Source: a virus. From it: a stretch of DNA of 33,313 nt. Shown one piece after another: positions 12,077 through 18,905 of the stretch (positions are counted from its first letter, which is position 1; every line of letters begins with the position of its first letter). The notes under the pieces are model-generated. The model saw only the letters and a program-made list of their open reading frames with translations, was not told the origin of the DNA and did no database searches. The translations under genes were made by a program, and so were the position numbers. The stretch is taken from the IMG/VR virus record IMGVR_UViG_3300009412_000015, positions 1 to 33,313 of that record; one strand, given 5' to 3'.

Positions 12077-12745
12077 ATGAAAACATACGCCAACAAATCC
12101 AACGCAAAACGCGCCGCCATCAAAGCCATCGTTGCAGAGCGCGGCGTAGAGGAAGCAGAAGTTAAGGCCAACGCTGATCAATACTTCGCTATCGAAGGTG
12201 ACAAGGACAACGGCTTCTATCCCCACTACAAAACAGAGCGCGTTGGTGTAAGCGAAGAGAAAGAGAAGCAGCTGAAAGCCGAGCGTGAGTTCGATGAGCA
12301 GTACATTGAGAAGTTCGGAACTGCACATTGCCCACACTGCAACGTCCACCTGGAAAACGGTGCATGGACATTTGACGAGGCACTGGAAGAGCACTTGGAT
12401 CCGAAGTCCAGCGCATTTCCTGAAATGTTCACACACGAGTTTCTGTGCCTGGGCTGTGGTGAAGAGTTTGGCGAAGAGCGCGAGCTGCCTGTCAAGGGTG
12501 AGGGTATCAAGATCGAAAAGGATCGCCCAGAGCAGAATGGAATCGTGCGTCCGTCAGCTGGTGGCAAGTGTCGCGCCATTTGGGACTTCTGCGACGAGCT
12601 GAACGAGAAGGGCGTCATGCCTATGCCGAAGCTGCTGAAGGAAGCCGCTCGGGAGAAAGGTTGGAACGAAAACAACGCAGTGATTGAAATGTACCAATGG
12701 CGCAAGTTCCACGGCATTGTCGGCCGTCAAAATACAAGCAAGTGA
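12077..12745 (+). CDS. Zinc-ribbon protein with shared C-terminal 'EQNG-RP' domain
   Basis: A 222-residue protein with three parts. The basic N-terminus (MKTYANKSNAKRAA) is followed by two C-x2-C pairs, C85/C88 and C124/C127, that would make a zinc ribbon. The C-terminal domain (149-218) begins PEQNGIVRP and ends YQWRKFHGIVGR. That last domain is repeated, with clear similarity, in the gene at 13653-14258. The function is unknown; basic, Trp/Arg-rich and zinc-containing features favour nucleic-acid binding. The start follows CAGGAGATG-type sequence (GGAG) and a dedicated promoter. It is first in a block placed directly before the DNA-modification genes. Confidence 0.75.
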   Translation: MKTYANKSNAKRAAIKAIVAERGVEEAEVKANADQYFAIEGDKDNGFYPHYKTERVGVSEEKEKQLKAEREFDEQYIEKFGTAHCPHCNVHLENGAWTFDEALEEHLDPKSSAFPEMFTHEFLCLGCGEEFGEERELPVKGEGIKIEKDRPEQNGIVRPSAGGKCRAIWDFCDELNEKGVMPMPKLLKEAAREKGWNENNAVIEMYQWRKFHGIVGRQNTSK

Positions 12746-13652: not shown

Positions 13653-14258
13653 ATGTCTGAGAAACTTGCTGAACTGAAAAACGCCGCTGTCGAAGCCGAA
13701 AGCACTGTTGAAAACCTGCGGGCTGAAGTGTCCGCCCTGGAAGCTGCCGATGAGGTTGACAAGGAAGCAGTCAAGGCGAAGAAGGCGGAACTGCGCACTG
13801 CTGAGAGCGCACTGAAGAAGGCCAACACTGCCGTTGACAAGGAAATCAAGGCTGTCGAGCGCGAAGAAGAGCGTGCTGCGAAGCGTGCTGCCAAGGAAGA
13901 GGAAAAGCGCAAGCGCGAAGAAGAGCGCGAAGCCAAGCGCAAGGAGAAGGAAGAAGAGAAAGCTCGTAAGGAAGCGGAACGCGAAGCGAACCGTATGCCT
14001 GAGCAGAACGGTATCCGTCGTCCGAAGCCGAACACGAAGTGCGGCCGTGCCTGGGCGATTGCTGATGAGCTGTCTGCAGAGCTGGGTCAACCCACTCCTG
14101 TCAAGCCCCTCCTGGAGCGTGCTGTTGCTGAAGGCCTCAACGAAGGCAACGTCAAGGCTGAGTATGCACGGTGGCGCAAGTTCAACGGCGTAACTGGCCG
14201 TATTACCCTGCCGAAGGAAGAAGCTCCGGCGGAGCAGGAAGAAGCTCCTGCTGAATAA
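13653..14258 (+). CDS. Charged-helix protein with shared C-terminal 'EQNG-RP' domain
   Basis: A 201-residue protein. Residues 1-65 show heptad-like Leu/Ala/Val spacing (coiled coil). Residues ~66-114 alternate Glu and Lys/Arg almost without hydrophobics, the signature of a stable single alpha helix that acts as a rigid spacer. Residues 114-185 repeat the domain of the gene at 12077-12745: PEQNGIRRP, a Trp-containing helix, and YARWRKFNGVTGR. A short acidic Pro/Ala/Glu tail ends the protein. The function is unknown; a spacer holding a nucleic-acid-binding domain away from an oligomerising stalk is one reading. The gene has its own promoter and dyad elements and a GGAGA site, and it directly precedes the queE leader. 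Confidence 0.75.
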   Translation: MSEKLAELKNAAVEAESTVENLRAEVSALEAADEVDKEAVKAKKAELRTAESALKKANTAVDKEIKAVEREEERAAKRAAKEEEKRKREEEREAKRKEKEEEKARKEAEREANRMPEQNGIRRPKPNTKCGRAWAIADELSAELGQPTPVKPLLERAVAEGLNEGNVKAEYARWRKFNGVTGRITLPKEEAPAEQEEAPAE

Positions 14259-14355: not shown

Positions 14356-15042
14356 ATGAACACCCAACCAATAGAAAAACGACACCCCGGTTCAGGACAT
14401 CACCTGGACATCGTAAGCATCTTTCCCACCATTCAAGGCGAAGGCCCATTCACTGGGCACAGAGCCATCTTTGTACGCCTAGCTGGCTGCAACCTTCAAT
14501 GTCCCGGCTGTGATACGGATTACACTTCCGGTCGCGAGAAGCAGCACGTTGGCGACATCTGCAGAAGCATTATTGAGCACGGCGAAGCTCCCCGTCTTGT
14601 GGTCATAACAGGGGGAGAGCCCTTCCGACAGAACATCTCCGTCCTTGCCAACGGTCTCATTGCTATGGGATACGATGTGCAAATTGAGACGAACGGAACA
14701 CTCCCGCCAAGCCCAGGTCTGTCCGAGCAAGTGTGCGTCGTATGTAGCCCGAAAGCTGGAAAGCTGAACAAGGTGATTGCTGACCGCGCTGACTGCTTCA
14801 AGTATGTGATGCACGCTGACAGCGTTGCGGATGACGGGCTTCCGATACTTGCACTTGACCACAGTGCCAAGCCCAGGGTGGCGCGTCCACCTTCAGGCAG
14901 CAAGGTTCCCGTCTACCTGCAACCCATGGACTCGCAGAATATCGCGCAGAACCACCGCAACATTGCGGCAGTGGTTGCAAGCTGCATGGAGCATGGATAC
15001 CTGCTCCAACTTCAGATTCACAAGATAGTAGGAGTCGAATAA
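14356..15042 (+). CDS. queE: 7-carboxy-7-deazaguanine synthase QueE
   Basis: QueE is a radical-SAM enzyme that rearranges 6-carboxytetrahydropterin into 7-carboxy-7-deazaguanine. The sequence (228 residues) has IFPTIQGEGPF at the start, the cluster-binding C45-x3-C49-x2-C52, the glycine motif ITGGEP, and QIETNGT in the region of SAM contact. The spacing is the standard CxxxCxxC rather than the expanded loop seen in some QueE proteins. A GGAGG site precedes the start; the stop overlaps the next gene (TAATG). It is the first gene of the queE, GATase-queC, queD, folE, dpdA series. Confidence 0.95.
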   Translation: MNTQPIEKRHPGSGHHLDIVSIFPTIQGEGPFTGHRAIFVRLAGCNLQCPGCDTDYTSGREKQHVGDICRSIIEHGEAPRLVVITGGEPFRQNISVLANGLIAMGYDVQIETNGTLPPSPGLSEQVCVVCSPKAGKLNKVIADRADCFKYVMHADSVADDGLPILALDHSAKPRVARPPSGSKVPVYLQPMDSQNIAQNHRNIAAVVASCMEHGYLLQLQIHKIVGVE

Positions 15043-16454
15043 TGTGCTCAATCTTTGGAGCGTTGCTCCCGAAAACGAATAACACCCACGACACCATTAA
15101 GGCGGGCGTTGACCTTCGCCTCATTATGGAGCACAGCATGGCGCGGGGCCGGGACGGTTATGGGTGGAACAATCATTTCTTCCTGTTCCAGAAAGGTGCG
15201 GATGATTGCCGAAAGGTCGCTCGCACGTTCACACTAGATGAAATCGTGCAACCTGACTTCGAGACGACGGTACATGGTGCGGCTATTATTGGGAACTTTC
15301 GTGCTGAGCCGACTACCGAATACGTGATGAAAAAGCGGGCACACGATCAGCAGCCGTACAGGCTTATGAAGTGGGCCACTGTGCATAACGGGACCGTCGC
15401 AAACGACAGGGAGCTCCGCACCCATGAGGTCCAAACATCTATTGACAGTGCAGCGATTGTTGAGTCGCTGTGCAAGCAACCCCAGCTCTTTGAAGGACCT
15501 GATGATCTGTACAGCACCTTCCACAACACGGTGAAGAAGGTTGTTGGTAGTTACGCCATTCTGGCGACCCACATGGACTTCCCGAATCAGGTGTTGCTGG
15601 CTGCCAACTACAGGCCGATCTGGGTGTCAATCAACGCCCACGGTGTGTTCTTTGCAAGTGCTGAGGAATACTTCCCTGACGACCATACACCCATCGCGAT
15701 CGAGCCGTACAGCACTGCGTCATTCCGCTACACGGACGAGGGCCACTTGGAGTTTGAGACTAACACTCTGCGCCCGAAGCGTGACCCTAATGTGAAGCCA
15801 CGAGCCCTAGTAGTTGCAAGCGGGGGCCTTGATAGTACCGTTGCCGCTGCACAGTGCATCAAGGACGGTTACGACGTTGAGCTGATTCACTTCACCTACG
15901 GGTGCCGCGCTGAGGGAAGGGAAGTCCACGCAGTTCGTAAGATTGGGCAGGAGATGGGGGTCCCCGTCACAGTGTTCCCAATGGAAATCTATGAACCTTC
16001 CGACTCCCGTTTGTTCGATCGAAACAGTGACATCGCTGGCGGGGAAGAGGGAGCTGAGTTTGCCCATGAGTGGGTTCCGGCGCGAAACTTGGTGATGCTT
16101 AGTGTGGCCACAGCTATCGCCGAAGCACGCGGGTTCGAGTATATCGTCCTGGGCAACAACCTGGAAGAGGCTGGCGCGTATCCCGACAATGAACCCGAGT
16201 TTATTAGACGGTTCAACAACCTGCTCCCGTTCGCTGTGGGCGACGGCAAGCGGGTCGAAGTGCTCATGCCAGTTGGGGACCTTATGAAGCACGAAATCGT
16301 CGCTCTGGGCAGCACAAACGGCGCTCCGCTGCACTTGACCTGGAGCTGCTACAAGAACGGGGGCCTGCACTGCGGCAAGTGCGGTCCCTGCTTTATGCGA
16401 AAGACTGCATTCAATATCAACGGGCTTGAAGAAGTCATCCAATACGAGGAATAA
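15042..16454 (+). CDS. queC: Glutamine amidotransferase-QueC fusion (preQ0 / 7-deazaguanine amidine synthesis)
   Basis: Residues 1-240 are a class II glutamine amidotransferase: Cys2 as N-terminal nucleophile (MCSIFGA), NFRAEP, and HNGTVAND for glutamine binding. Residues ~250-470 are QueC: the PP-loop S260-GG-L-D-S265, EWVPARN, and a zinc site C436, C444, C447, C450. QueC uses ATP and ammonia to make 7-cyano-7-deazaguanine (preQ0) from the QueE product. Fused amidotransferase-QueC proteins are known from Crenarchaeota and from phage 9g, where they are linked to the amidine base archaeosine (G+). By that precedent this phage is predicted to make G+ for its DNA, rather than stopping at preQ0. 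The AGGAGT site and TAATG overlap support the start. Which final base is made cannot be told from sequence. Confidence 0.93.
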   Translation: MCSIFGALLPKTNNTHDTIKAGVDLRLIMEHSMARGRDGYGWNNHFFLFQKGADDCRKVARTFTLDEIVQPDFETTVHGAAIIGNFRAEPTTEYVMKKRAHDQQPYRLMKWATVHNGTVANDRELRTHEVQTSIDSAAIVESLCKQPQLFEGPDDLYSTFHNTVKKVVGSYAILATHMDFPNQVLLAANYRPIWVSINAHGVFFASAEEYFPDDHTPIAIEPYSTASFRYTDEGHLEFETNTLRPKRDPNVKPRALVVASGGLDSTVAAAQCIKDGYDVELIHFTYGCRAEGREVHAVRKIGQEMGVPVTVFPMEIYEPSDSRLFDRNSDIAGGEEGAEFAHEWVPARNLVMLSVATAIAEARGFEYIVLGNNLEEAGAYPDNEPEFIRRFNNLLPFAVGDGKRVEVLMPVGDLMKHEIVALGSTNGAPLHLTWSCYKNGGLHCGKCGPCFMRKTAFNINGLEEVIQYEE

Positions 16455-16457
16455 GAA

Positions 16458-16964
16458 ATGCACGAAGTACACCGCTATCACGACATCTGCGCAGGGCATC
16501 GCGTTACAGGGCACGAGAGCAAGTGCCAGCACCTGCACGGGCACAACTACCGGGTTCACTTCACCTGCGTCATGGACACTGCTTCGCAGAGCAAGGAACT
16601 TGGCGCAACAAGAACCCTCGACGACATCGGTCGAGTGATCGACTTCAGCGTTGTCAAGGAAAAGCTGTGCATGTGGCTTGAGGATAATTGGGATCACAAG
16701 TTCCTCGCATGGAAGGAAGACCCCTTGATGAAAGCCATTGCAACAGACGTCTCGTTCCTGGGCTTTGAAAGTGACGTTGGCAAGCGTGCGGAAAACATGC
16801 TGGACGCTTCAATGGTGTGGACTGACTTCAACCCCACTGCTGAAAACATGGCGCAGCACCTGGTCGACGTTGTAGGTCCTCAACAGCTTGCTGGAACCGG
16901 TGTGAAGCTGGTGAAAGTGCTTATCGAAGAAACTGCTAAATGCCACGCTTCATACGGAGTATAA
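16458..16964 (+). CDS. queD: 6-carboxytetrahydropterin synthase QueD
   Basis: QueD (PTPS family, 168 residues) converts dihydroneopterin triphosphate from FolE to 6-carboxytetrahydropterin, the QueE substrate. The catalytic and zinc motif C23-x3-H27-x-H29 is present in CQHLHGHNY. Other landmarks are VIDFSVVK, WDHKF, NPTAENMAQ and the closing EETAKCHA. Compared with short QueD proteins (~120) there is an insertion after the WDHKF strand (about residues 82-115), as in longer PTPS-type members. GAGGAA upstream supports the start. It ends one base before the folE fusion. Confidence 0.93.
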   Translation: MHEVHRYHDICAGHRVTGHESKCQHLHGHNYRVHFTCVMDTASQSKELGATRTLDDIGRVIDFSVVKEKLCMWLEDNWDHKFLAWKEDPLMKAIATDVSFLGFESDVGKRAENMLDASMVWTDFNPTAENMAQHLVDVVGPQQLAGTGVKLVKVLIEETAKCHASYGV

Positions 16965-16965
16965 G

Positions 16966-17868
16966 ATGACACAAGTAATTCTGAAACACAGCGACATTGA
17001 AAACCTCTGCTTGGCCCTGGGTGACTTGCTTGCCTCTATGGGGAACGCTCCTGGAACCGACCTGAAGTGCTTCCCTATTCCGAACGGTGGTGTTCCTGCC
17101 GCGTATGCACTGGACGCCAACTTCGGGCTTGAGTTTGTCACTGACCCCAACGATGCTGACTTCTTCTTTGACGACATCATTGACAGCGGCGCTACAATGC
17201 GCAAGTGGTGCGATGAGTACCCTGGCAAGCCTTTCCTGGCGCTGATCGACAAGCTCGACCCTGCATCGCCTTACAGGGACTCCTGGGTCGTGTTCCCTTG
17301 GGAGGGGACGGCAGAAGTAGGGATCGAAGACAACATCCGTCGGATCCTGCAATACACGGGTGACAACGCGGAACGTGAAGGGCTCCTGGAAACGCCGAAG
17401 CGTGTGGCCAAGGCTTTGAACCACTGGTTCAGCGGGTACGCACAGGATCCCAAAGAGATCATGAAGGTGTTCGAAGACGGGGGTGAGGACTACAACCAGA
17501 TGGTCGTTGTCAAGGACATCCCCATCTACAGCAAGTGTGAACACCACATGGCTGACATCTTCGGAACTGCAACCATTGCTTATATCCCTGACGGGAAGAT
17601 CGTTGGGCTGTCGAAGCTGTCCCGCCTTGCAGACGTGTTCGCACGGCGCCTGCAAGTGCAGGAACGGCTCACTTCTCAGATCGCACATGCGATCCAGGAA
17701 CACCTCGATCCGAAGGGTGTGGGTGTTATGATTAAGGCGCGTCACATGTGCATGGAGTCGCGTGGTATTTGCCAACAGGGGCACCACACTGTGACCACAG
17801 CACTTGTCGGCGCGTTCCTCAACGAGCCTGAGACCCGAGCTGAGTTTATGGCACTTGCGAGACAATAG
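16966..17868 (+). CDS. folE: Purine phosphoribosyltransferase-like domain fused to GTP cyclohydrolase I (FolE)
   Basis: The C-terminal ~185 residues are GTP cyclohydrolase I, which opens GTP to dihydroneopterin triphosphate. C191-E-H-H194 and C262 provide the zinc ligands, with GLSKLSRL and TVTTALVGAF as further landmarks. Residues 1 to ~114 form a type I phosphoribosyltransferase domain: an IPNGGVPAA loop, the PRPP-binding D69-D-I-I-D-S-G-A-T77, a DK near 91-92, and W-V-V-F-P-W112-E, the base-stacking end typical of xanthine/guanine phosphoribosyltransferases. The usual RGG pyrophosphate loop is NGG here. FolE alone is ~220 residues, so this is a true fusion. A role in returning guanine or a related purine to the nucleotide pool is an inference from the motif and from DpdA chemistry. 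CGGAG precedes the start. Confidence 0.88.
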   Translation: MTQVILKHSDIENLCLALGDLLASMGNAPGTDLKCFPIPNGGVPAAYALDANFGLEFVTDPNDADFFFDDIIDSGATMRKWCDEYPGKPFLALIDKLDPASPYRDSWVVFPWEGTAEVGIEDNIRRILQYTGDNAEREGLLETPKRVAKALNHWFSGYAQDPKEIMKVFEDGGEDYNQMVVVKDIPIYSKCEHHMADIFGTATIAYIPDGKIVGLSKLSRLADVFARRLQVQERLTSQIAHAIQEHLDPKGVGVMIKARHMCMESRGICQQGHHTVTTALVGAFLNEPETRAEFMALARQ

Positions 17869-17884
17869 CGGCGGGTGTTAGAAT
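17855..17884 (+). promoter_or_regulatory. Extended -10 promoter for dpdA
   Basis: TTGCGA (17855-17860) lies 18 bases before TAGAAT (17879-17884), which is preceded by TGT (an extended -10). The -35 is within CACTTGC, a block shared with other promoters in the window, and overlaps the end of folE. It would start a transcript of about 97 bases ahead of dpdA. Confidence 0.5.
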
Positions 17885-17896
17885 ACCGTTTGGACG

Positions 17897-17964
17897 GGTG
17901 TAGGACACCTATCAAGGGCGCACGAGCCTTGGCAACGCGGAAGGGACTCCGTATCAAGTGCGCC
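17897..17964 (+). ncRNA. Structured leader of the dpdA transcript
   Basis: The 119-base gap before dpdA can fold. GGTGT-AGG-ACACC (17897-17909) makes a tight hairpin. GGCGCAC (17917-17923) pairs perfectly with GTGCGCC (17958-17964). Inside this, CCTT (17927-17930) can pair with AAGG (17941-17944). AGCCTTG (17925-17931) and GGACTCCGTA (17944-17953) are shared with the queE leader. It is too short for a tRNA. It may sense a pathway product or bind a protein; no known riboswitch class was recognised. Confidence 0.4.
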
Positions 17965-17987
17965 TGACTTTATGAACAGGAGGAATG

Positions 17988-18905
17988 ATGTACATATACA
18001 TGGCCGCACTTCACTCAAACGGATACCGGCATACGAACCGTTATGTGAAGCTGAACGACAGAGAAAAACAAGTCGTAGACAACCTGCCGCACTTGCTTGA
18101 GTCATACCACTATATTCACAAAGACAGCTTTGTGCAAGCCATACGCGAGAAAGGCGATAAGATATTTCTTGACTCCGGTGCGTTCTCTGCTTACACCCTG
18201 GGCGTGGATCTCGACCTGCCTACCTATTGCGATTACATAAAGCGCAACTCCGACATCATACGTGTGGACGATGGCATTGTCATGGCATCCGTATTGGACG
18301 GCATCGGCGACCCTCAGCTCACCTATGAGAACCAGCTCGCAATGGAGGCCCATGGGGTGCGCCCCCTCCCCTGTTTCCACGCAGGCGAGGACGAACGGTA
18401 TCTAGAATGGTACGTTCAGAACTACGATTACATCACGCTGGGCGGTATGGTTGGCTCTAGTACAAAGCAGCTCATGATCTGGCTTGACCGGATGTGGGAC
18501 AAGTACCTGACGGATGGAGCAGGGAACCCGCGCATTAAGGTTCACGGGTTTGGTATTACGTCCATCCCCATTATGGAGCGGTACCCGTGGTGGTCCTGTG
18601 ACTCCTCTTCCTGGATTCAGTCCGCTGCCTACGGCAGTGTGATCAGCCCCGAATTCGGTCCCCTGTCAGTGTCCGAGAAGTCCCCTAGCAGGCACGAAGC
18701 GAACCAGCACGTTGAAACACTCCCGCCAGTTATGCAAGAGCAGGTCCTTCGCATGTTTGAATCACAGGGGTTCACATACGAGCGTCTGTCCACTGTGTAT
18801 GAGTCCAGGGCTGCCTACAACCTCTGGGCGTTCACAGAGATCAACAAGATGATCGATCGTGATAACCCCAATAACTTCAAATGCGAATACCAGGAGCTGT
18901 TCTGA
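17988..18905 (+). CDS. dpdA: DNA 7-deazaguanine transglycosylase DpdA
   Basis: DpdA is a relative of tRNA-guanine transglycosylase that exchanges guanine in DNA for a 7-deazaguanine base. Family landmarks are visible: FLDSGAFSA near residue 58, PCFHAGED, YITLGGMVGS, KVHGFGITS and the RYPWWSCDSSSW segment. The protein is ~305 residues, the compact phage length, and lacks the zinc-binding cysteine set of tRNA enzymes. Two ATGs are adjacent: I chose 17988, four bases after AGGAGG, because the ATG at 17985 leaves only one base of spacing; either adds or drops one Met. Its own promoter and leader separate it from folE, so modification may be timed apart from base synthesis. The stop overlaps a 44-residue ORF (TGATG). 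Confidence 0.93.
   Translation: MYIYMAALHSNGYRHTNRYVKLNDREKQVVDNLPHLLESYHYIHKDSFVQAIREKGDKIFLDSGAFSAYTLGVDLDLPTYCDYIKRNSDIIRVDDGIVMASVLDGIGDPQLTYENQLAMEAHGVRPLPCFHAGEDERYLEWYVQNYDYITLGGMVGSSTKQLMIWLDRMWDKYLTDGAGNPRIKVHGFGITSIPIMERYPWWSCDSSSWIQSAAYGSVISPEFGPLSVSEKSPSRHEANQHVETLPPVMQEQVLRMFESQGFTYERLSTVYESRAAYNLWAFTEINKMIDRDNPNNFKCEYQELF

Follow-up and report, generated by a model that had tools for sequence, protein, structure and literature searches.

The window, that is the whole stretch of DNA analyzed here, is the 33,313-base virus record IMGVR_UViG_3300009412_000015, a Queuovirinae-like phage sequence. At positions 14356-18905 it carries, in this order and on the plus strand, genes for a QueE-like radical SAM protein (7-carboxy-7-deazaguanine synthase; 14356..15042; phrog_2076, 2e-57), for Gat-QueC, a class II glutamine amidotransferase-QueC fusion (15042..16454; PF06508, 3e-55; phrog_10428, 4e-200), for QueD (6-carboxytetrahydropterin synthase; 16458..16964; PF01242, 8e-23), for a fusion of a putative phosphoribosyltransferase (PRT) domain to GTP cyclohydrolase I (FolE), and for DpdA, the DNA guanine transglycosylase (17985..18905; phrog_887, 9e-89). 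FolE, QueD, QueE, Gat-QueC and DpdA are thus found together, as in a DpdA-type 7-deazaguanine DNA modification cluster, and polymerase clamp and DNA polymerase genes lie downstream. By analogy with phage 9g (PMC6884629), Gat-QueC points to dG+ (archaeosine) as the predicted modified base. Between the helicase gene and queE, two ORFs of unassigned function (12077-12745 and 13653-14258) are partial paralogues, their C-terminal regions matching at 47% over 68 amino acids.

The fusion is encoded by one gene (ORF 16966-17868, plus strand; 300 amino acids) with an ATG start and GGAG upstream, which begins directly after the QueD gene. Its product comprises a predicted mini purine PRT domain (residues 1-114; 16966..17307), a flexible linker (about residues 114-118; 17308..17319) and the FolE domain (residues 119-299; 17320..17868, including the stop codon), which Pfam GTP_cyclohydroI (PF01227) matches over residues 120-298 at 3e-71. 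The FolE zinc and catalytic residues C191, H193, H194, H260 and C262 are intact and do not vary across 17 full-length fusions. Modeling of the whole protein (overall pTM 0.61) gave confident structures for both domains, with the five-residue linker as the sole segment with a pLDDT below 50 and no firm interface between the PRT and FolE domains. The closest cultured relatives of the window FolE are found in Stenotrophomonas, Pseudomonas, Variovorax and Xanthomonas phages, including Nipunavirus. We note that inteins with traces of an HNH endonuclease interrupt the FolE domains of two fusions, immediately before the zinc-binding CEHH in one (L009:5905-7644) and further downstream in the other (L066:5875-7647).

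Fold and active site of the N-terminal domain

The initial annotation had described a FolE protein with an N-terminal PRT domain, and this description was borne out by modeling and profile searches of residues 1-114. The AlphaFold2 model of the domain (pLDDT 92.5) gave top Foldseek matches that were all xanthine-guanine PRTs (XGPRT), with the E. coli and Yersinia enzymes best (E ~1e-5, TM 0.68-0.74). A 15-member family profile searched against the PDB matched the Pyrococcus purine PRT 1vdm (2e-6) and the E. coli and Yersinia XGPRTs (~1e-5); with the window domain as a single sequence, only chance matches were found in the PDB, and XPRT was weak (0.06). A family profile from which the window and its closest relative had been left out recognized the window domain at 3e-44, as compared to a best value of 0.03 in 10,000 shuffles. 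In addition, phrog_8995 ('phosphoribosyl transferase') matches residues 66-117 of the whole window protein at 5e-7. The Pfam PRT model (PF00156) scores the window domain at 13.7 bits, under its curated cut-off of 26.3, whereas the unfused mini-PRT of Flavobacterium phage immuto clears it with 35.1 bits. Taken together, models and profiles support well the assignment of the N-terminal domain as a purine PRT.

A chance motif in an unrelated extension was rejected as an explanation on the basis of the leave-out profile, the shuffles and the fold. The dN/dS of the PRT domain (~0.06-0.5) indicates purifying selection, even though this domain changes several times as fast as FolE; these values, together with the fixed active-site residues, led us to reject a decaying remnant for the family.

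The three motifs singled out initially, DDIIDSGAT, WVVFPWE and NGG, are all present in the window protein, where they correspond to a PRPP loop at D69-T77, to the end of the PRT domain and to a pyrophosphate (PPi) loop at P39-N40-G41-G42. The fold, the DDxxDS/TGxT PRPP loop and the base-binding Lys and Trp are common to the fusions, E. coli XGPRT (Gpt), Pyrococcus 1vdm and Sulfolobus GpT-2, and most fusion PRT domains end similarly to the W-I/V-V-F-P-W-E of 1vdm. In the window, the two acidic residues and the catalytic Asp of the PRPP loop are D69, D70 and D73, and the 6-oxopurine contacts are K96 (Lys115 of XGPRT) and W107 (Trp134).

Residues were counted in the 93 fusions with a complete motif, after mapping onto E. 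coli XGPRT numbering. The equivalents of D88, D89, S/T93 and G94 are present in all 93, D92 in 91, and T96 in 92 with one Ser; K115 is kept in 86 and W134 in 92, so that the base residues K115, W134 and D92 are overall 92-99% conserved. Conservation of the motifs is partly aided by the finding of loci through DDIIDSG or WVVFPWE patterns; nevertheless, fusions from a FolE-based sample, found without these patterns, keep the same motifs. The conserved residues do not discriminate between guanine, hypoxanthine, xanthine and a 7-deazaguanine as the PRT base.

Two features depart from known 6-oxopurine PRTs. Archaeal and E. coli enzymes carry RGG in the PPi loop, as do most fusions (the R37 equivalent is Arg in 83 of 93, Lys in 4 and Asn in 2), whereas the window has NGG, with N40 in place of the Arg. 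This replacement, to which the initial annotation had drawn attention, is real and unusual, being common to just one other fusion; a close relative that is 79% identical in the PRT domain (L002) has RGG. It could mean lowered function in the window protein. The second feature is general: the segment between the PPi and PRPP loops, where the flexible catalytic loop lies (between strands 2 and 3), has 28 residues (21-43) in the fusions as opposed to 49 in XGPRT. Compared to XGPRT and the archaeal enzymes, the fused domain is thus ~20 residues shorter at this loop, in every fusion, and we refer to it as a 'mini-PRT'. Since loop II of HPRT covers the active site in catalysis (PMC6783271), activity of the mini-PRT may be low or lost.

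Distribution and relatives of the fusion

The initial annotation had linked the fusion to DNA modification by DpdA, and a survey of its occurrence is in line with this link. DpdA was present in the same record for 89 of 94 distinct PRT-FolE fusion loci, and in the five other records (L024, L032, L078, L137 and L152) the contig is truncated next to the cluster. In a FolE-based sample of 80 records that were not selected for PRT (25 fused, 55 unfused), DpdA accompanied 23 of the 25 fusions versus 34 of the 55 unfused FolEs (Fisher p 0.004, uncorrected for kinship); in these 34 dpdA phages with unfused FolE, no PRT was found in the flanks examined. PF01702 (TGT) detects no phage DpdA, even in known carriers, and its negatives were left out. 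We found no PRT-FolE fusion in untruncated phages lacking DpdA. Among the matches listed in a motif-based scan of 84,980 bacterial and archaeal species genomes, the fusion occurred in one MAG only, on two contigs carrying a full que/dpdA cluster, and no folate-only bacterial fusion appeared; a fusion common in folate-only contexts, which would have spoken against the link, was thus not seen. The association is near-strict in one direction: a fused PRT is almost never found without DpdA, while DpdA phages are often without PRT.

The mini-PRT also exists as a separate gene. In the DpdA-type clusters of Flavobacterium phage immuto and L037 it neighbors FolE, and in L082 it is found between QueD and QueE. 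The immuto_2-6A cluster resembles that of the window in that mini-PRT and FolE adjoin, in the company of QueD, QueE and an annotated DpdA, but PRT and FolE are separate genes and its DpdA belongs to a different family (phrog_19058). In a 170 kb virus record (L070), a standalone mini-PRT is located just before FolE and QueD is present; DpdA of either type was not found there, and this unfused protein is the sole exception to the association among phage mini-PRTs.

The history of the two domains differs. The FolE tree requires 23 changes between the fused and unfused states, at least 6 of them on well-supported branches, whereas the PRT tree requires 3. This disparity suggests a single PRT lineage with repeated loss or exchange of FolE, although many forks have weak support. 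In four loci (L024, L025, L035 and L080) the FolE partner is of another lineage, close to the FolE of large phages, while the attached PRT clusters with the remaining fused PRTs; here FolE appears to have been exchanged behind the PRT.

Longer standalone PRTs neighbor FolE or QueD genes in phages where DpdA was not detected (L018, L020, L177-L179 and L090). The phrog_8995 standalone PRTs of Cellulophaga phiST, Synechococcus BUCT-ZZ01, Campylobacter Firehammervirus and Brevundimonas MaInes belong to the same overall family as the fusion PRT and share a WxxFxWE/D end, several of them accompanied by FolE, QueD or QueE genes. Unlike the fusion, they mostly have the full loop, are unfused, often carry Asn or Arg in place of K115, and most occur in phages without detected DpdA. 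Since longer relatives adjoin FolE or QueD in such phages, the wider PRT family is not linked exclusively to guanine release. PRTs of the DpdA-less phages carry a DDIND motif and mostly Asn at K115, where the DpdA-linked mini-PRTs keep Lys, which suggests that the two classes act on different bases. In Brevundimonas phage vB_BpoS-MaInes (L180:1660-6474), RNR beta, RNR alpha, a dNMP kinase, FolE and a purine PRT form an operon, with QueC and QueD elsewhere in the genome and no DpdA detected; we consider this operon a candidate modified-dGTP pathway.

The literature describes Campylobacter phages as lacking DpdA. We dropped them as a clean DpdA-less case because gp069 of CP21 (L184:2813-3589), an immuto-type DpdA-like gene missed by phrog_887, shares 45% identity with the DpdA annotated in Flavobacterium phage immuto; its likeness to phage DpdA is remote (hhalign E 3e-5, probability 72%). 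It is thus possible that a further DpdA-like family (phrog_19058) has been overlooked so far and, the DpdA families being diverse, absence of DpdA from phages classed here as DpdA-less is not proven.

Possible roles of the fused PRT

Base exchange by DpdA frees one guanine for each modified base, as established for the TGT family. The best-supported reading of our data, which we hold at even confidence, is recycling of this guanine by the N-terminal domain, acting as a reduced 6-oxopurine PRT. DpdA would release free guanine from DNA, the mini-PRT would join it to PRPP to give GMP, host kinases (Gmk, Ndk) would convert GMP to GTP, and FolE would restart 7-deazaguanine synthesis from the GTP pool. 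Guanine is itself a TGT-family substrate, and its removal by the PRT would also spare DpdA its product and competitor and may favor exchange. What we observe is the architecture, the PRT fold, the PRPP and purine residues, purifying selection, an intact FolE and the near-strict association with DpdA; from these we infer catalysis by the mini-PRT, guanine as its substrate and a recycling flux. With assumed figures of 57 kb, 30% of G modified and a burst of 100, simple arithmetic gives ~1e6 guanines released, similar to the 6e5 GTP molecules of a 1 mM pool in 1 fL.

The recycling proposed in the initial annotation is partly supported. GMP is not usable as a FolE substrate and two kinase steps separate the PRT and FolE active sites, so that direct channeling is impossible; the fusion probably ties expression and stoichiometry rather than channeling substrate. 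Guanine PRTs are also generally present in bacterial hosts. These host enzymes, the many dpdA phages without detectable PRT, the missing flexible catalytic loop and the need for two kinases all argue against a tight loop.

PRT folds act as regulators in PyrR and PurR, and the domain could instead have given up efficient catalysis and serve as a ligand sensor for PRPP, GMP, GTP or ppGpp that tunes FolE. Such a role would fit the absence of the flexible catalytic loop from every fusion, attachment to the committed GTP-consuming step, the non-consecutive PRT and FolE steps and the binding of ppGpp to HPRT pockets (PMC6783271). We nevertheless judge it unlikely, given the high conservation of the catalytic Asp and of the Lys and Trp that contact the base, none of which a PRPP-only sensor would need, the flexible linker in place of a firm domain interface in the model, and the occurrence of the mini-PRT unfused beside FolE.

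A PRT that converts a 7-deazaguanine base (preQ0, ADG or archaeine) to its nucleotide and supplies a modified-dGTP route alongside DpdA is less probable still. The catalytic Asp of HGPRT acts on N7, an atom that 7-deaza bases do not have, and in a DpdA phage such an enzyme would consume the free base needed by DpdA; the K115 of the mini-PRTs, as opposed to the Asn and DDIND of most DpdA-less PRTs, also speaks against it. In its favor are the longer PRTs that accompany FolE or QueD in phages where DpdA was not detected (L018, L020, L178 and L090), the company of RNR and dNMP kinase in MaInes, and the modified-dGTP proposal for Campylobacter phages cited by Hutinet 2019 (PMC6884629). The two settings could be joined in a single scheme, which we put forward as doubtful: in DpdA phages a loop-less mini-PRT would close a guanine cycle, while in DpdA-less phages a re-specialized PRT (Lys to Asn) would make modified dGTP from free 7-deazaguanine, one family thereby serving two opposite routes.

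XGPRT accepts several 6-oxopurines, the active site is XGPRT-like and HGXPRTs are among the closest PDB profile matches, but general salvage of hypoxanthine, xanthine and guanine from degraded host nucleic acid, raising GTP for FolE with no special DpdA link, is very improbable in view of the near-absolute DpdA association and of the lack of fusions in untruncated DpdA-less phages or, among the matches listed, in cellular genomes outside a DpdA cluster.

Recycling of the expelled guanine by a PRT would bear on a matter that was not addressed in the literature searched, namely the fate of guanine expelled by DNA transglycosylases. A PRT fused to the entry enzyme, almost only in the company of DpdA, offers a concrete and assayable answer. 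The fusion is assembled from known families, and as a combination is an apparently undescribed variant: no description of it was found in the literature searched, although prior mention elsewhere is possible. The FolEs of 7-deazaguanine clusters in phage 9g and Nipunavirus NP1/Quinobequin-P09 (Hutinet 2019) are of the same family and lie in DpdA clusters, and that of Nipunavirus carries the same PRT fusion as the window; the literature searched on such phage FolEs does not mention an N-terminal PRT. Public records annotate the fusion genes as GTP cyclohydrolase only, an annotation that is corrected here, and the finding extends to Pseudomonas, Stenotrophomonas, Xanthomonas and Vibrio phages in culture.

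Natural loop-less PRTs also provide material to probe the role of the flexible loop. Standalone loop-less mini-PRTs were observed in Synechococcus/Prochlorococcus genome records (L095:7941-8348 and L096:7902-8300), with Glu replacing the catalytic Asp; that of L095 lies directly before a nucleoside 2-deoxyribosyltransferase gene (PF05014).
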